Positions 1 through 7,328 of a stretch of 7,574 nt of DNA are shown here, piece by piece. Where the stretch lies: the NCBI GenBank assembly GCA_046759145.1, contig JBHIBR010000082.1, positions 1 to 7,574 of the forward strand. Direction: 5' to 3'. Both the position numbers and the translations under genes were made by a program. The number at the start of each line of letters is the position of its first letter. Position 1 is the first letter of the stretch. The DNA is from JBHIBR01 sp046759145 [NCBI: Nitrospinota bacterium] (GTDB taxonomy: Bacteria > UBA8248). The notes beneath the pieces were generated by a model. That model ran no database searches. It saw only the letters and a program-made list of their open reading frames with translations, and had not been told where the DNA came from.

Positions 1-264
1 TATCTCAAGGACGTCCTCGACCACCTCCAGCGCATCGAGACCAACCTCCAGATGTGCCGGGACCTCCTCACCTTCTCTCTCTACCTCCTCTTCCGCAAGA
101 AGCACTGGTTCTGGGGGGGGTCCCCTCTCCCTTCCCTCCCCGGTCCCCTCGTCCTCTGGCCCAGAGGCCATATGCCGCGAAGAGGGCGGCGGAGAAGAGG
201 TAGCCCCCCGCGATGGAGGGGGCGACCCCGAGGCCGAAGCGGTGACCCACGCCGCCGGGAGTGA
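1..264 (+). pseudogene. 3' end of a CorA-like Mg2+ channel gene, apparently missing its membrane core
   Basis: The reading frame enters from outside the window at base 1 and stays open to a stop at 262-264. Only about 1-117 looks coding: its third codon positions are almost all G or C, and it reads YLKDVLDHLQRIETNLQMCR, then DLL. That resembles the long cytoplasmic helix of CorA channels just before transmembrane segment 1 (pattern Y.RDVYDH...ETIE..RDLL). It is followed at once by SLYLLFRKKHWFW, which resembles the last few residues of CorA (typical ending YF+KKKWL). The roughly 60-70 residues that normally lie between, including TM1, the GMN selectivity motif and most of TM2, are absent. After position 117 the frame becomes Arg/Gly/Pro-rich and is the shadow of the convergent permease gene, so the true stop seems lost. 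Likely an internally deleted, non-functional gene or an assembly junction. The match is to short motifs only, so the family call is tentative. Confidence 0.4.
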
Positions 265-1666
265 TCTCGTAGGCGTGGATGACACCGACGAAGGACAGGA
301 CCGCGCCGGCCAGCGCCCAGAGGGCAGCCTTCCCGAAGTCGCGCTCGATCAGGAAGACCGAGATGGAGGAGAGGATCATCGAGCTGAAGAGGAAGCCCCG
401 CTCGAGAAGGATCAGGCCCCGGATGGGGATCCGGTGGAGGAACGCCCCCTCGCCGAGAGAGTGGAGGTCCGTCCCCGCCGCCCCGAGGGCGCTCTGGATG
501 AGGAGGAGCCCCCAGGCCGCCAGCGCGGGGAAGAGCCCCACCGCCACGGCCGGGGCGTGGCGGTGGGGAGTGGCCTGGAAGGCCTGGGCCACGATGACCA
601 CGCCGATCCAGAGGAGGATGGCGATCCCCGCCTCGAGGGGGACGAGCCGCAAGACGGCCCCCACCGTGCCCGTGAAACAGAGAAAGGCGAGGAAGAACCC
701 GTTCAGGGTGGAGTAGCCCGCCCTCGCCCCCAGGGCCTTCCACCCCGGGTGGCCGATGTAGATGGTGGTGGGAAAGCAGGAGCCGAAGCACGCCGCGATC
801 AGCGAGCCCGCCCCGTTGGCCGCGAGCGCAGCCCGGGCGGGATAGCGGTCCCCGGCGGCCTCAGCACTCTCCACGTTCTGGAGGGAGCCGACGACGTTGA
901 AGAGGCCCATGGGCACGGTGACGGCCATGTAGCCCAGCAGGTGCTCCGGCCGGAGGGCGGATAGTAGCTCCCCCACCGCAGGCCGCGGCGGAGCCCACCT
1001 GAGCGAGAGCGCAAGCCCTCCCTCCATCAGGCCGAGCGCCCAGGCCAGGGCCGTCCCCACTGCCACTGCCGCCATCCCCCCGGGGAGGCCGAGGGGGAAG
1101 CGGGCGCGGCTGAAGTACTGGAGGAGGATGATGGCGAGGGGGGCCATGGCCACAAGCGGCATCTCAAAGATGCGGAACAGGAAGTCCATGGCGATGAAGC
1201 TCACCGCGATCCCCGCCAGGGCCGAGAGGAGGGCGGCCCGGGGCGTGACCCGGCGCAGCCGGTCCGCCACGAACGCCCCGCCGAGCTCGATGAGGCCGCT
1301 CACGAGACAGGCCACCAGGCCCACCCGCCAGGCGAGCTCCGGGTCCCCTGTCTTCCGGTAGATGGGGGCCATGATGAAGAGCACGAAGGCGAAGAGGCTC
1401 ACAGTGTTGATGCCGTAGGGCAGAGCGGTCACATCCGAGCGGCCCTCCCGCAGGGCAAGGCGCCGCGCCTGCCAGGCGTAGAAGAGGTTGCCGAAGAGGA
1501 TGCTCAGGGCCGCGCCGGGGAGGATGCGTCCGAAGAGGAGCTCATCGGGAAGCCCCACGAGGCCCCGACCCAGCGAGACGATGAGGATGAGCTGGACGAG
1601 GTTGTCCACCATGAGGCCGAAGAAGCCATCCAGGTCGCGTCGCGTGAACCAGGGGTAGGAGCTCAC
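68..1666 (-). CDS. NCS2-family (AzgA-like) nucleobase/xanthine-uracil type permease
   Basis: A 532-residue inner-membrane protein with about 12-14 hydrophobic stretches, probably a proton-coupled importer of a purine, pyrimidine or similar ring compound. The start is GTG at 1666, supported by GAGGAG at 1675-1680, 8 nt upstream. Family marks include DNLVQ near residue 21, ALPYGINT (81-88), FNVVGSLQNVESAEAAGD (256-273, the place of the conserved acidic TM8 segment) and GSCFPTTIYIGHPGW (295-309, equivalent to the GTSTVTTYIES segment of AzgA permeases), followed by ARAGYST. The match to AzgA is partial: acidic E266/E269 sit where substrate contacts are expected, but the flanking motif differs, so the substrate cannot be named. 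The last ~30 residues, after LWARG (501-505), are charged and low-complexity. Codons 516-532 lie antisense to the CorA-like tail and span a run of eight C, so the natural C-terminus may be shorter. The gene is divergent from the aldo/keto reductase. Confidence 0.85.
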   Translation of the reverse strand: MSSYPWFTRRDLDGFFGLMVDNLVQLILIVSLGRGLVGLPDELLFGRILPGAALSILFGNLFYAWQARRLALREGRSDVTALPYGINTVSLFAFVLFIMAPIYRKTGDPELAWRVGLVACLVSGLIELGGAFVADRLRRVTPRAALLSALAGIAVSFIAMDFLFRIFEMPLVAMAPLAIILLQYFSRARFPLGLPGGMAAVAVGTALAWALGLMEGGLALSLRWAPPRPAVGELLSALRPEHLLGYMAVTVPMGLFNVVGSLQNVESAEAAGDRYPARAALAANGAGSLIAACFGSCFPTTIYIGHPGWKALGARAGYSTLNGFFLAFLCFTGTVGAVLRLVPLEAGIAILLWIGVVIVAQAFQATPHRHAPAVAVGLFPALAAWGLLLIQSALGAAGTDLHSLGEGAFLHRIPIRGLILLERGFLFSSMILSSISVFLIERDFGKAALWALAGAVLSFVGVIHAYEITPGGVGHRFGLGVAPSIAGGYLFSAALFAAYGLWARGRGDRGGKGEGTPPRTSASCGRGGRERR

Positions 1667-2995: not shown

Positions 2996-3775
2996 CTACC
3001 CGCCCCGTAGGCTCCACGGCAAGCCTCGCCCCACTCCGGCGGCCATCAGGGAGACCGTGCGGGGCAGAGCCTCTCGCCACTCGGCCCGGCGGAGGAGGCG
3101 CGAAAGGAGAAGGAGGTCCTCCCACCGGTCAAGGTCGAATCCGGGGGCAACCTCCCCGAGCCGGATGCCCGCCGCGCGGGCGCGCCGCACGCTCTCTCGG
3201 TACACGCCCGGGTGGCTCCAACGCTGCCCCTCGAAGAGGGCTGGGACAGGCCTCCTGGCGCCCACGAGGTAGTAGCCCCCATCGTGGCTCGGGCCGAGCA
3301 CGGCCTCCTTCCCTCCCTCCTCCAGCGCTCGGAGGGCCTCCTCCACCACCTGCGGACGGAGGCTCGGGCAGTCGCTCCCGACGAGGACGGCGACGCCTGC
3401 TCCGCGGCGAAAGGCCCCCTCCAGCGCCCGCTCCATCCGTTGCCCCAGGTCCATTCCCTCTTGCGGGATGAGGTCGAAGGCGCGCGGGAGATGGGGAAGG
3501 AGGCGTCCGGCCGGGGCGGCGGGGTCGTAGGCCGCAAGGCGCACCTCCGCGCGGACCCGGAGGAGGAGGAAGGCGAGGTCTTGCAGAAGGGCGGCGTAGA
3601 GGCGCGCTGCGGCGGCGGGGTCGAGGGGCGGAATAAGGCGGGTCTTCACCCGCCCCGGCTCGGGCGCCCGGCCAAAAAAGATGAGGGCGCGGCGAGGGCG
3701 GCCGCTCCACCGGGCGCGCAGCCGGGGAAAGCCCGCGCCCCTTCGCCTCAGCCCTTCGGCCGCACGATGCGCCAC
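2996..3775 (-). CDS. DUF2064 / TIGR04282 CofC-like transferase (rSAM/selenodomain-associated transferase 1)
   Basis: A 259-residue soluble protein of the glycosyltransferase-A / nucleotidyltransferase fold. Family motifs are clear: FFGRAPEPGRVKTRL (33-47, the nucleotide-binding N-terminus), GSDCPSL (133-139, the metal-binding acidic motif), GPSHDGGYYLVG (161-172) and DLDRWEDL (214-221, place of the usual D.DT.EDL). The family is known as TIGR04282, named for co-occurrence with radical-SAM/selenodomain proteins; its exact reaction is not settled. Here it is last in an operon with a PhnCDE-type ABC importer whose binding protein resembles putative selenate binders, which supports a selenium or oxyanion link. 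The start is uncertain. GTG 3775 gives about 27 extra basic residues before RRALIFF and overlaps a possible upstream ORF by 28 nt. No ATG, GTG or TTG lies nearer the domain, so translation may be coupled or start at a rare codon. Confidence 0.88.
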   Translation of the reverse strand: MAHRAAEGLRRRGAGFPRLRARWSGRPRRALIFFGRAPEPGRVKTRLIPPLDPAAAARLYAALLQDLAFLLLRVRAEVRLAAYDPAAPAGRLLPHLPRAFDLIPQEGMDLGQRMERALEGAFRRGAGVAVLVGSDCPSLRPQVVEEALRALEEGGKEAVLGPSHDGGYYLVGARRPVPALFEGQRWSHPGVYRESVRRARAAGIRLGEVAPGFDLDRWEDLLLLSRLLRRAEWREALPRTVSLMAAGVGRGLPWSLRGG

Positions 3776-3876
3776 TCGTCCTCGAACTCCATCCCCGACT
3801 CGCGGAACAGGGCGGTGAAGGAGGCGGCCGAAGCCGCACGGCGGCTACCATAGCGGAAGCCATCCCGACGCCGCAA
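3748..3876 (-). CDS. Possible small ORF or gene remnant between permease and DUF2064 gene
   Basis: A frame ending at TGA (3748-3750) gives a balanced, protein-like tail: GFRYGSRRAASAASFTALFR, then ESGMEFEDEWRIVRPKG. From about 3855 onward nearly all third codon positions are G or C, and this patch lies in no other recognisable gene except the overlap with the DUF2064 start. The only in-frame start after the upstream permease stop is TTG at 3876 (42 residues), and it lacks a convincing ribosome binding site. I recognise no family. It could be a small operon protein, the eroded C-terminus of a lost gene, or, through a frameshift, part of a longer N-terminus. The frame stays open upstream to 4113, but there it is only the shadow of the permease gene. 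Its stop lies 28 nt inside the downstream GTG start, compatible with translational coupling. Confidence 0.35.
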   Translation of the reverse strand: MRRRDGFRYGSRRAASAASFTALFRESGMEFEDEWRIVRPKG

Positions 3877-3914
3877 GAGGGCGCCGCGTGGACGCGGGTC
3901 GGCCCTGCCGGTCC

Positions 3915-4790
3915 TTAGCCCTCTCTTGCCAGGACCCTGCGCCGCAGCCGGGCGCTCAGCCCGTCCACCGCCGTCACCAGGAGGAAGATGACGATGAGGA
4001 GCGTGAGGAGGCGGTTTTCGAGGAAGAGCTGTATGGCCACATGGAGCTCCTGCCCCAGGCCCCCCGCCCCCACAAATCCCAGGATGGTGGCCGCCCGGAT
4101 GTTCACCTCCCACCGGTAGAGCGTGTAGGAGAGGAGCTGGGGGAGGGCCTGGGGGAGCACCCCGTAGAAGAGCACCGCCACCCGCCCCACCCCGGAAGCG
4201 CGCAGGGCCTCGATGGCCCCCCGGGGAACCTCCTCCAGGGCCTCGGCGTAGAGCTTGCCGAGCACCCCCCCGGTGTGGACACCCAGGGCGAGGGTACCGG
4301 GGAAGGGTCCGAGGCCTGCGGCCAGGATGAAGAGGATGGCCCAGAGCAGCTCGGGCACCGCGCGGAAAAGAGCGAGGAGGAGGCGCGCTCCGAGGAAGAG
4401 CCCTCCTCGAATCAGCCTCCCTGCCGGGATGCCCCTCTCCACCTCTTCCAGCGCCCCGGCGGTGAGCGTCCGTGCCCCCGCAAAGGCGAGGGGGAGAGCC
4501 AGCGCTACAGCCAGGAAGGTTCCGAAGAGGCTGATGGCGAGGGTCTCGAGCACCCCCCAGGCCACGCGGCTTAAGAAAGGGACGCCGAGGGCGGGTGGCC
4601 AGAGGCGCGAAAAATACTCCCAGAGCTGGCGAAGGACCTCTCCTCCCAGGAGTCCGGGGAGATCCGCCGCCACCCCCCGGTAGCTCCAGGCGAAGAGAGA
4701 GAGCGCCGCCAGGGCCAGGAGGAGGTTGGAGAGCGACACCCCCCCCCTTCGCCCCAGGACCTCCCCTCTCGCCACGGCTCGCAGCGTCAC
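3915..4790 (-). CDS. phnE: PhnE-type ABC transporter permease (second subunit)
   Basis: A 291-residue inner-membrane subunit of an oxyanion/phosphonate-type ABC importer, with about six hydrophobic segments (first at roughly 20-37, last at 261-279). The cytoplasmic coupling (EAA) loop is clear: EALRASGVGRVAVLFYGVLP at 194-213, followed by LYRWEVNIRAATILGFVGAG (224-243) and GLGQEL, all typical of PhnE-like permeases. It is a paralogue of the upstream permease: both share LYRWE..IR...LGFVGAGG.GQ.L and the VPEL.WA segment, so the two probably form a heterodimeric channel. Start GTG 4790 is preceded by a GGGGGGAG ribosome binding site with 7-nt spacing and lies 19 nt after the upstream permease stop. 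The symbol is at family level only; the transported anion may be selenate or another oxyanion rather than phosphonate. Confidence 0.9.
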   Translation of the reverse strand: MTLRAVARGEVLGRRGGVSLSNLLLALAALSLFAWSYRGVAADLPGLLGGEVLRQLWEYFSRLWPPALGVPFLSRVAWGVLETLAISLFGTFLAVALALPLAFAGARTLTAGALEEVERGIPAGRLIRGGLFLGARLLLALFRAVPELLWAILFILAAGLGPFPGTLALGVHTGGVLGKLYAEALEEVPRGAIEALRASGVGRVAVLFYGVLPQALPQLLSYTLYRWEVNIRAATILGFVGAGGLGQELHVAIQLFLENRLLTLLIVIFLLVTAVDGLSARLRRRVLAREG

Positions 4791-4809
4791 TCGCTTTCTC
4801 CCCCCGACC

Positions 4810-5673
4810 TCACCGCAGCCGCTTGCGCAGCCACGCGCTCAGGGCGTCGGCAACACATACCAGAACCAGGAGGGCCAGGAGGAGGGTGGCCACCTCTCCG
4901 TATCGGAACATCCGCATCGAGAGCTCGAGCTGCTGGCCGATTCCCCCGGCTCCCACGAACCCCAGGACAGCTGAGGAGCGGATGGCGCACTCCCACCGGT
5001 AGAGGCCGTAGGCGATGAGGTTGGGGAGACTCTGAGGAAGCACTCCGTAGGCGAAAATGGAAATGCGCCCCGCCCCCCCGGCCGCCAGGGCCTCAAGTGG
5101 ATCCTCATCCACCGCCTCGTAAGTCTCTGAGAATACTTTTCCCAATATCCCGCTGTAGCCCACGGCAATCGCGAGCACGCCCGCGAAGGGGCCCAGGCCC
5201 ACCGCCCGCACGAACACCAGCGCCCAGACGAGCTCGGGCACAGTGCGGAAGGCGTTCAGCAAAAGGCGGGCGAGGCCATAGGGGAAAAAGCGCAAGGCAC
5301 GCCAAAGCGCTCCCCCCCTGGCCGCCCCGAAGAGGGGCCCGCGGATAGTCAGGATGCTCGAGGCGGGGAGGGAGAGGGGGAAGGCCAGAGCCAGAGCCAG
5401 GAGGGTCCCCATGAGGGCGATCTGGACTGTCTCGACGGAGGCCCGAAGGGTGAGCGCTAGGAACTCCGGCGACAGAGCAGGGGGGAAGAGCCCGGCGAGG
5501 AAGTCGGCCATGTGGCGGCGCGACTCTTCCGAGAGGAGAATTCCCGGGCGGACCTCCGCCAATCGGTAGCTCGCCCCCAGGGCCAGGGCGAGGGCCGCCA
5601 GGAGGAAGAGGTTCCCCCTCCGGTGGAGAAGGCCTCCCCTAGCGGGAAGCGCGGGGGAGGAACTTTCGGCCAT
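4810..5673 (-). CDS. phnE: PhnE-type ABC transporter permease (first subunit)
   Basis: A 287-residue inner-membrane permease paired with the downstream paralogue. A hydrophobic N-terminal helix at about 21-36 follows a short basic cytoplasmic tail. Then come a periplasmic segment with FPPALSPEFL (63-72), membrane helices at about 75-103, 133-160 and 163-180, the coupling loop EALAAGGAGRISIFAYGVLP (194-213), and LYRWECAIRSSAVLGFVGAG (224-243) with GIGQQLEL. These match the binding-protein-dependent permease family of phosphonate-type importers. ATG 5673 lies 35 nt inside the 3' end of the ATPase gene, an overlap expected for translational coupling; a GGAAGG sequence stands about 11 nt upstream. 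The TGA stop is at 4810-4812. The symbol denotes the family, not proven phosphonate transport. Confidence 0.9.
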   Translation of the reverse strand: MAESSSPALPARGGLLHRRGNLFLLAALALALGASYRLAEVRPGILLSEESRRHMADFLAGLFPPALSPEFLALTLRASVETVQIALMGTLLALALAFPLSLPASSILTIRGPLFGAARGGALWRALRFFPYGLARLLLNAFRTVPELVWALVFVRAVGLGPFAGVLAIAVGYSGILGKVFSETYEAVDEDPLEALAAGGAGRISIFAYGVLPQSLPNLIAYGLYRWECAIRSSAVLGFVGAGGIGQQLELSMRMFRYGEVATLLLALLVLVCVADALSAWLRKRLR

Positions 5674-6463
5674 CGGAGGGCTCGCCTTCCGCGCCTTCCC
5701 GCCCGGACGGGACGGAGGCGCCGCGATAGAGCTCTACCAGGAGGCCCTCCGTCACCCGGCCGGCCTCGAGGTCGAAGAGCACGGCCCCCTCCCGCATCCC
5801 AACTACCCGGGGAAAATGGGAGAGGGCCAGGCGGACGCTGTGAAGGCTCGCCAGCAGGGTCGCCCCCTGCTCGGTGCTCACGCGGCACAGGAGAGAGACG
5901 ATCTCTTCGGCCAGAGGCGGGTCCATCCAGGAGACAGGCTCATCGGCCAGGATGTGCGCGGGCGACTGGACCAGGACGCGGGCGATGGCCACCCGCTGCT
6001 GCTGGCCTCCACTCAGGCGCTCGGTGCGCTCCCAGAGCTTCTCGGGGATGCCCACACGCTCGAGGGCCCCCAGGGCCAGCTCCACCTCCCGGGGCGAGAG
6101 AAGGGAGAAGAGGGATTTCGCGAGGGGCCACTGGCCCAGGCGGCCCGCGAGCACGTTATGGACCACCCGGAGGCGGGGGACGAGGTTCTGCTGTTGGTGG
6201 ACCGTGCCCACCCGCCGCCGCAGCTCCCGGAGCGCCCGACCGGAGAGGGCGCCCAAATCCTTTCCTTCTAGCCGCAGGCGGCCGGATGTGGGACGGAGGG
6301 TGCCGTTGAGGAGGCGGAGGAGGGTGGATTTCCCCGCGCCGCTCGGGCCAACGATCGCCACCTGCTCCCCCTGCTCCACGCGCAGGCTGAAGCGGTCCAC
6401 GGCGGCGATGGTGCCCCCGCCCTCCGCCCGGAAGACTTTTGTAAGCCCTTCGAGCTCGAACAT
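5639..6463 (-). CDS. phnC: PhnC-type ABC transporter ATP-binding protein
   Basis: A 274-residue cytoplasmic ATPase powering the importer. Motifs appear in order: Walker A GPSGAGKST (39-47), Q-loop Q90 in HQQQNLVPRLRVVHNVLAGR (89-108, the NLVPRL...NVLAGR run typical of PhnC), signature LSGGQQQR (150-157), Walker B HILADEP (170-176) with catalytic E175, and H-loop His208 in LLASLHS. The D-loop reads SWMDP (178-182) where PhnC proteins usually have SLDP after one or two small residues. This is unusual but keeps the Asp. The ~25 residues after 250 are Gly/Ser/Arg-rich, and the last part overlaps the permease start by 35 nt. ATG 6463 has GGAGAGAG 5 nt upstream, 16 nt after the binding-protein stop. 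Phosphonate specificity is not implied; the binding protein decides the substrate. Confidence 0.93.
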   Translation of the reverse strand: MFELEGLTKVFRAEGGGTIAAVDRFSLRVEQGEQVAIVGPSGAGKSTLLRLLNGTLRPTSGRLRLEGKDLGALSGRALRELRRRVGTVHQQQNLVPRLRVVHNVLAGRLGQWPLAKSLFSLLSPREVELALGALERVGIPEKLWERTERLSGGQQQRVAIARVLVQSPAHILADEPVSWMDPPLAEEIVSLLCRVSTEQGATLLASLHSVRLALSHFPRVVGMREGAVLFDLEAGRVTEGLLVELYRGASVPSGREGAEGEPSDGRKFLPRASR

Positions 6464-6479
6464 GCAGTCTCTCTCCAGG

Positions 6480-7328
6480 CTACTTCAGCAAGCCCGCCGC
6501 CCGGGCGGCCGCCTCGATGCCCTTGAAATCATCCTCGACCGCCAGGATGTAACCCGAAGCCCGCTGGAGGGCGAGCAGGCGCCGATGCTCGGGATTCTTG
6601 GGGTCCAGTTTCAGGAAGGCCCGCACGAGCTTCGAGACGATCTCCCGGTCCAGGTCTCCCCGCACGGTCCAGTTGTAGTCCACATAGGGAGGGGTGGTCC
6701 AAAAGACCCGCACCTTGCGCACGTCCACCTTTCGGTCCCGCACCAGCTTCTCCCACACCGCTTCGTTCAGCGCCCCCGCGTCCACCCTGCCCGCCTCGAC
6801 CCACTTGACGGTGGCGTCGTGGGCGCCGCTGTAGGAAAAGCGCCGGAAATCCCGCTCGGGGACGACGCCGCTTTTGAGGAGGAAGTGGCGCGGCATGAGG
6901 TGGCCCGAGGTGCTGCCCACGCTGCCGAACGCGAAGGTCTTCCCCTTGAGGTCGCGGAGGGAGCGGATGCCGCTCCCGACCCGGGCCACGAACTTGGAGT
7001 GGAAGGCCGCGTCCTCTTTCCGCATGACGATGGCGAAGGCGTCTCCCGTGCGACGGCGCGCCTGGACGTGGGTGAAGCCCCCAAACCAAACCATCTCCAG
7101 CTTGCGCGCCGCCAGGGCCGCGACGGTGGCGGCATAGTCCACGACCGGGATGAACTTGACCGGAATCCCCACCTCCCGCGAGAGGTACCGCACCAGGGGC
7201 TCGTACTTGCGCAGGAGCTCCGAGGGGGCCTCGTCGGGGATGGCCGAGACCCGGAGGACGGCGGGCGAGCCCGCCCAGGCGGATCCGGCGAGGAGGAGCA
7301 CTATCGCAGCGATGGCGCCACGAAGCAT
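6480..7328 (-). CDS. PhnD-family periplasmic binding protein, resembling putative selenate ABC transporter binders
   Basis: A 282-residue exported protein that captures the substrate for the downstream ABC importer. A signal peptide covers residues 1-19 (MLRG, hydrophobic core AIAAIVLLLAG, AWA cleavage site before GSPAV). There is no lipobox Cys, so a soluble periplasmic protein is expected. The mature part shows VSAIPDEAPSELLRKYEPL (27-45), DYAATVAALAARKLEMVWFG (64-83), GSVGSTSG (135-142, the anion-binding STSG segment), YSGAHDATVKWVEAGRVDAG (166-185) and TTPPYVDYNWTVRGDLD (211-227). These strings resemble, from memory, the clade annotated as putative selenate ABC transporter substrate-binding protein (TIGR04553) more than E. 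coli-type PhnD. Substrate identity is therefore inference. ATG 7328 follows a purine-rich GGGAGGGAAGGG ribosome site. It is first in the operon, about 50 nt downstream of a good promoter. Confidence 0.92.
   Translation of the reverse strand: MLRGAIAAIVLLLAGSAWAGSPAVLRVSAIPDEAPSELLRKYEPLVRYLSREVGIPVKFIPVVDYAATVAALAARKLEMVWFGGFTHVQARRRTGDAFAIVMRKEDAAFHSKFVARVGSGIRSLRDLKGKTFAFGSVGSTSGHLMPRHFLLKSGVVPERDFRRFSYSGAHDATVKWVEAGRVDAGALNEAVWEKLVRDRKVDVRKVRVFWTTPPYVDYNWTVRGDLDREIVSKLVRAFLKLDPKNPEHRRLLALQRASGYILAVEDDFKGIEAAARAAGLLK

Follow-up and report, generated by a model that had tools for sequence, protein, structure and literature searches.

A TIGR04553-family ABC importer proposed to carry selenite, and its relation to the picocyanobacterial protein PhnD1

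Results

Genes of the transporter

The stretch of DNA analysed here, the 7,574 nt of contig JBHIBR010000082.1 (assembly GCA_046759145.1), is called the window throughout and contains seven clear genes. Four of them, consecutive on the minus strand, encode a substrate-binding protein (SBP), an ATPase and two permeases of an ATP-binding cassette (ABC) transporter, which on comparative grounds is probably an importer of a selenium oxyanion, most likely selenite. Their features are as follows.

6480..7328, minus strand: SBP of the TIGR04553 family, 282 aa (348.6 bits against a cut-off of 250)
6675..7136, minus strand: codons of the SBP ligand pocket by alignment to 7s6g, Y65, W81, F109, S139-T140-S141, H170, D217 and Y218, which are, in the same order, residues 44, 60, 88, 124-126, 156, 203 and 204 in the numbering of the 7s6g paper
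5639..6463, minus strand: PhnC-like ABC ATPase, 274 aa (TIGR02315, 235.1 bits, below the cut-off of 266.1; PF00005)
4810..5673, minus strand: PhnE-like permease 1, 287 aa (TIGR01097, 240.5 bits against 216.7)
3915..4790, minus strand: PhnE-like permease 2, 291 aa (TIGR01097, 245.8 bits against 216.7)

The gaps between these genes are 16, -35 and 19 bp, and 139 bp then separate them from a gene for a TIGR04282 transferase. The four transporter genes therefore form a tight operon, which is well supported; the transferase is at most a possible member of it. A pattern scan listed no terminator-like site in the 139-bp gap, such sites being no commoner in the window than in its shuffles. All five genes named in a preliminary description of this DNA were recovered at the coordinates listed here and below; the single transcription unit drawn there holds for the transporter, co-transcription of the transferase being only possible. 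The N-terminus of the SBP is hydrophobic and resembles a signal peptide, by eye only. No tRNA was found in the window, and no Rfam family matched it at gathering score.

Family membership of the transporter

The SBP is a full-length member of TIGR04553, whereas with the PhnD model TIGR03431 it reaches 165.2 bits and does not meet the cut-off of 261.1. The preliminary description had likened it to the putative selenate clade, citing three strings that are indeed present at residues 27, 166 and 211, and these scores bear out that likeness. TIGR02315 is the best family for the ATPase, and the family scores of the window genes are far beyond chance. TIGR04553 was further surveyed in 299 Pseudomonadota genomes, sampled from the phylum of G010, a positive known beforehand that served as the centre (G labels denote genomes and L labels the loci around their SBPs). 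The scores leave a clean gap, with 24 genomes at 327-423 bits and the next at 171.

Two trees of the SBPs were built, both of which carry long-branch warnings. The second omits L045 and L046 for their long branches; L037, a duplicate of L010, is omitted from both, and a second SBP copy of G287 is in neither. In the second tree, 47 rows on the TIGR04553 side are split from six others at 97/96 and the window SBP groups with L001 and L002 at 92/92; the corresponding supports in the first tree are 86/81 and 81/86. Membership of the window SBP in the TIGR04553 clade is thus supported by both scores and trees.

Co-occurrence with selenium genes

In the Pseudomonadota sample of 299 genomes, 84 have a selD that passes the cut-off. 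The gene is present in 22 of the 24 TIGR04553-positive genomes against 62 of the 275 negative ones (Fisher p 1.4e-11), and leaving out the centre genome changes this little (21/23, p 4.4e-11); the Fisher tests here and below ignore relatedness, and genome completeness is not given. As a control for specificity, genomes were separated that hold only another PhnD-type SBP, a class set by us as E <= 1e-15 and below the TIGR04553 cut-off. selD occurs in 35 of 86 such genomes and in 27 of the 189 genomes with neither kind of SBP.

Altogether, 39 TIGR04553-positive genomes were available, 16 matched by the window SBP (all over cut-off) and 23 from the survey. Genes over cut-off in them are selD (35), mnmH (27), selA (22), TIGR04282 (13) and PhnJ (7). 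The two nearest relatives of the window, G001 and G002, both have selD, together with a full-length selA in G001 and a selA fragment in G002, and the close relatives with selD comprise G001-G004, G007 and G014. Two other phyla offer little further. The phylum of G001 contains only five genomes, and its two positives were both already known. In the phylum of G014, two of 198 genomes are positive, one being the centre and the other, G405, possessing selD, a number without statistical power. In G495, the best SBP scores 209.2 bits, below the TIGR04553 cut-off, and selD is present.

Selenium genes beside the transporter

Within 10 kb of the SBP, selD, mnmH, senA or senB was found in 12 of the 39 positive genomes and selA in none, several of the loci being shortened by contig ends, which lowers such counts. 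The arrangements are diverse. In L073 (7450-15069), genes for SenA, SelD, SBP, ATPase, two permeases and EgtD follow one another on one strand, with SenB next on the other strand; SenA scores 379.4 bits here, under its cut-off of 420, and 485.6 in L015, over it. L073 thus holds a TIGR04553-type importer inside a selenoneine locus, which suggests a dedicated selenium supply for selenoneine. In L057, a fused oxidoreductase-SelD gene and SenB adjoin the SBP, and L058 and L059, judged by similarity, are laid out in the same way. G010 and G013 show the order SBP, ATPase, two permeases and mnmH, and a divergent selD flanks the SBP at the opposite end (236 bp away in G010).

Among plasmids, 17 records matched and nine were opened; the Aeromonas record has no annotation in the stretch concerned, and the gene table is incomplete. 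Selenium genes lie within 8 kb of the SBP in three of the eight annotated records. Sphaerotilus sulfidivorans carries an operon of mnmH, ATPase, permease, SBP and selD, and the SBPs of Paracoccus marcusii and P. liaowanqingii adjoin a divergent stretch with formate dehydrogenase and selA, selB being also in view in the latter. Together, the co-occurrence with selD and the neighbouring selenium genes support a link between the TIGR04553 clade and selenium use.

A different neighbourhood was seen at L005, L006 and L075, loci of a TIGR04553 subclade in genomes that lack selD. The genes beside these SBPs match beta-propeller/cupredoxin, cytochrome c, redoxin and SCO1 families; a selenium-binding protein was considered beside the SBPs of L005 and L006 and was discarded in favour of these matches. 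One neighbour protein, L006:2494-3333, matched no family.

The ligand pocket and its likeness to PhnD1

The structure predicted for the window SBP has a mean predicted local distance difference test score (pLDDT) of 92.2. By sequence and by fold (Foldseek), the nearest solved proteins are PhnD1 of Synechococcus (7s6g) and of Prochlorococcus (5lq5, 5lq8). The partial chains of PhnD1 themselves pass TIGR04553 (7s6g 337.3 bits, 5lq5 301.6) and group inside its clade with the selenium-linked G086, G190, G154 and G287, at 99/99 in the first tree and at 100/99 in the second, where Paracoccus joins them; the long-branch warning of one tree concerns this very subclade. Since PhnD1 passes the model and belongs to the clade, the model score cannot separate cargoes. 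The preliminary description had named a best score with characterised phosphonate or phosphite binders as an outcome that would speak against it: the PhnD model failed to recognise the SBP, and the nearest solved relative is a protein that binds phosphite and phosphate, in the same clade.

The phosphate contacts named for 7s6g are Y44, S124, T125, S126, H156, D203 and Y204, with S123 holding a water (PMC10284923). All the named contacts are kept in the window SBP by alignment; residue 123 differs, being G in the window SBP and S or N in PhnD1. In 42 aligned clade rows (the window, 39 loci and two PDB chains), Y44, S124-T125-S126 and H156 are invariant, as are W60, G63 and F88, and Y204 is found in 41. 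Position 203 is D in 33 rows and N in nine.

PtxB (5o2j) and the PtxB-like rows L041-L044 have in common with the window SBP the fold, the S-T-S loop, H156 and the capping Y204. These five rows differ from the clade in possessing Y60, P63 and Y88 in place of W60, G63 and F88 (42/42), and position 203, which is D or N in the clade, is Q in four of them and N in the fifth; they fall outside the TIGR04553 clade at 97/96, a split subject to the long-branch warning. The window SBP has W, G and F at 60/63/88, not the Y, P and Y of PtxB, which L045 also shows; W, A and V stand at these positions in the distant row L046. An intermediate pocket was observed on a Burkholderia vietnamiensis plasmid (L086 6920-11034), where the SBP of a phosphite-type, phosphonate dehydrogenase operon combines Y60 with G63, F88 and D203 and scores 221.2 bits with TIGR04553, under the cut-off. 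Given the invariance of W60, G63 and F88 and the sub-threshold score of the L086 SBP, the clade containing PhnD1 can therefore be distinguished from the proteins of phosphite operons, a distinction resting on one intermediate example.

The TIGR04282 gene and the remaining genes

The other three genes of the window are listed below.

2996..3775, minus strand: TIGR04282 transferase (DUF2064), 168.8 bits against 134; PF09837
1857-2978, plus strand: aldo/keto reductase
68-1666, minus strand: membrane protein, 532 aa

The membrane protein looks by eye like a multi-spanning permease and has no over-threshold match in Pfam, NCBIfam or PHROGs. The start codon of the transferase gene is uncertain, as the family match starts at residue 31. 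Its assignment to TIGR04282 in the preliminary description was confirmed by the score. The current NCBI description of this family is an arsenosugar biosynthesis glycosyltransferase, "rSAM/selenodomain-associated" being an older name. Among the seven window proteins scanned, only the TIGR04282 protein itself bears an arsenosugar-pathway name, and a literature search whose scope excluded most subscription journals turned up no paper on arsenosugar glycosyltransferases.

Of the 299 Pseudomonadota genomes, 136 have a TIGR04282 protein that passes the cut-off. The family is anti-associated with selD, which is present in 19 of these 136 genomes and in 65 of the 163 without TIGR04282 (odds ratio 0.24, p 6.6e-7). 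This anti-association, uncorrected for relatedness and genome completeness, runs counter to the older name. The family is also rarer where TIGR04553 is present (5/24 against 131/275, p 0.017). In 28 genomes the SBP could be placed by coordinates; a TIGR04282 gene shares its contig within 20 kb in only one of them, G102, at a distance of 17.4 kb. With the window transferase as query, no relative was found at the 39 SBP loci and eight plasmid loci, several of which are short. The preliminary description had proposed a survey of genomes sharing the gene order; the order of transporter plus TIGR04282 gene has so far been seen in the window only.

For these reasons (current name, anti-association with selD and lack of a copy beside the transporters of relatives) TIGR04282 was rejected as a selenium gene, and the transferase is probably an unrelated neighbour of the transporter. 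The TIGR04282 gene of G001, a Tectomicrobia relative (L077, about 4436-5008), has an apparent TGA within its frame, which was considered as a selenocysteine codon and rejected, because family-like sequence continues in another frame; judged from the sequence, it is most likely an assembly frameshift.

Discussion

The proposed cargo and its alternatives

In the proposed scheme, an oxyanion with three oxygens would sit between the two lobes of the SBP, held by Y65, the S139-T140-S141 loop, H170 and D217 and capped by Y218. The permeases and ATPase would carry the oxyanion into the cell; reduction to selenide would follow in the cytoplasm, and SelD would convert the selenide into selenophosphate, in the window lineage probably for selenocysteine. 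We infer from the comparisons above that selenium is the cargo, that selenite is preferred to selenate and that the later steps occur in the window's own genome.

Selenite is a shape analogue of phosphite, and selenate of sulfate; phosphite and selenite each have three oxygens and, on the fourth side, only a small face. Binding data are available for PhnD1. Synechococcus PhnD1 has dissociation constants of 0.67-4.3 micromolar for phosphite and 7.4-88 micromolar for phosphate, a preference that the table of the same paper puts at about 6- to 52-fold and its text at tenfold or more (PMC10284923). In a broad screen that included sulfur sources, only phosphorus-source cocktails shifted its melting, and sulfate was dismissed by the authors as the ligand in the crystal (PMC10284923). 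As this pocket takes phosphite and seems to refuse sulfate, selenite is the likelier cargo and selenate the second choice. Import of selenate, as the curated NCBI family name has it, draws on the same association with selenium genes as selenite does; given the equal contact residues of PhnD1, its indifference to sulfur sources and the likeness of selenate to sulfate, it is improbable, and the "selenate" label of TIGR04553 is doubtful.

Import of phosphite, phosphate or phosphonate, with the selenium neighbours of the relatives being incidental, is also unlikely, if somewhat less so. The nearest solved folds and the identical contact residues belong to PhnD1, which binds phosphite with micromolar to sub-micromolar affinity and holds phosphate in its crystal. 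Against this, the SBP of the L086 dehydrogenase operon lies under the TIGR04553 cut-off, and two more dehydrogenase operons, opened from 703 matching plasmid records, have differently named SBPs. No close relative of PtxD was found in the 47 loci and the window, the one match having 31% identity, and none at E <= 1e-5 in the window itself. PhnJ occurs in just seven of the positive genomes, either on a different contig from the SBP or distant from it in G010, G012, G013, G015 and G206 and unplaced in G009 and G011, and the link of the clade to selD exceeds that of other PhnD-type SBPs. In agreement with the preliminary description, no C-P lyase is in view, none of the seven proteins matching one in a window that reaches 246 bases upstream of the SBP.

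The joint selenium uptake-and-conversion unit of importer and transferase put forward in the preliminary description is very improbable. The two adjoin on the same strand with no terminator-like site listed between them, and the older family name speaks for it; the current name, both negative associations and the missing transferase at the 39 SBP loci speak against it. Of the two selenium-linked families claimed there, the SBP clade stands and TIGR04282 falls, so that uptake of selenium is retained and the transferase as its conversion partner is not.

Several observations weigh against selenium as the cargo. Four of the 39 positive genomes lack selD, and with it selA and mnmH. The SBPs of three of these (G005, G006 and G279) make up a single subclade, and the genes beside them are of respiratory type (SCO1, cupredoxin, cytochrome); the cargo of this subclade may differ. 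The visible flanks of the window's closest relatives, several of them short, contain no selenium gene. The N at position 203 in nine rows weakens the argument from D203 as an acceptor residue. Phosphate was co-purified with PhnD1, and phosphorus oxyanions are the only ligands measured for any clade member (PMC10284923). In G159 (L040 / L056), which is without selD, the capping Y204 is replaced by T; in its sister G287, selD adjoins two copies of the SBP.

The literature bears on the matter only indirectly. The main texts of PMC10284923 and of PMC5700983, on phosphite recognition, contain no word beginning with "selen", and no selenium ligand is reported in them. Searches that did not cover most subscription journals found no paper naming TIGR04553, none joining selenite, phosphite and PhnD, and none in which a periplasmic binding protein takes up selenite, so that these negatives are of limited weight. 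A search for the "putative selenate ABC transporter" led to a paper on produced-water treatment, and one joining selenoneine, SenB and transporters gave two papers. In passages of other papers, an ABC ATPase gene is placed near orphan selD genes (2016 survey, PMC5029168), YedE is proposed (2015 survey, PMC5322559), and a phosphate-transporter subunit of Haloarcula marismortui is described as probably also transporting selenate (2008, PMC2276186).

A possible reinterpretation of PhnD1

We tentatively extend the selenite proposal to the whole TIGR04553 clade including picocyanobacterial PhnD1, a suggestion that may well prove wrong: its members would be dedicated high-affinity selenite importers, and the binding of phosphite would be shape mimicry of selenite. 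The PhnD1 gene is present in all 97 of 97 picocyanobacterial genomes surveyed, is not induced by phosphorus starvation according to studies cited there, and does not enable strains that lack phosphite genes to grow on phosphite (PMC10284923). All three facts would be explained if PhnD1 imports selenite; its authors propose phosphate uptake (PMC10284923). For selenium genes of picocyanobacteria we rely on excerpts of the literature. These report, in Prochlorococcus and Synechococcus, a SelD homologue whose N-terminus is extended by an oxidoreductase-like part, and the occurrence of ybbB with selD, "including cyanobacteria" (PMC1273633), and place selenouridine synthesis in the phylum of the picocyanobacteria (PMC1273633, PMC5322559, PMC1794560). 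Two points count against this extension. NCBIfam has a model named "fusion_not_SelD" (TIGR04369), so that the picocyanobacterial fusion is only a putative SelD, and an excerpt of the 2016 survey lists three Prochlorococcus genomes with selD and no known selenium trait (PMC5029168).

The interest of the locus lies in this reinterpretation, a clade of selenite importers that would take in the crystallised PhnD1. Clade genes lie in selenouridine, selenocysteine and selenoneine loci, and the proteins are easily expressed, two of them with structures, which makes selenite a concrete candidate. If true, the selenite reading would bear on the role of PhnD1.

Comparison with known systems

As a locus the window is ordinary: it adds one more member to a family whose existing name already makes it a putative selenium importer. 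The TIGR04282 transferase, whose family has a solved relative in 3cgx, is related to the transporter by position only. In TIGR04553 (NCBIfam, putative selenate ABC transporter SBP), genes for SBP, ATPase and permease occur together as in the window; the named plasmid records have one longer permease gene, whereas the window has two separate permease genes and the TIGR04282 gene downstream. E. coli-type PhnD (TIGR03431) has the superfamily and the kind of operon in common with the window SBP, with 21% identity between the E. coli protein and the window SBP (Foldseek). PhnD1, which sits in a different subclade from the window SBP, shows 43% identity to it in the marine Synechococcus protein and 36-37% in that of Prochlorococcus (Foldseek).

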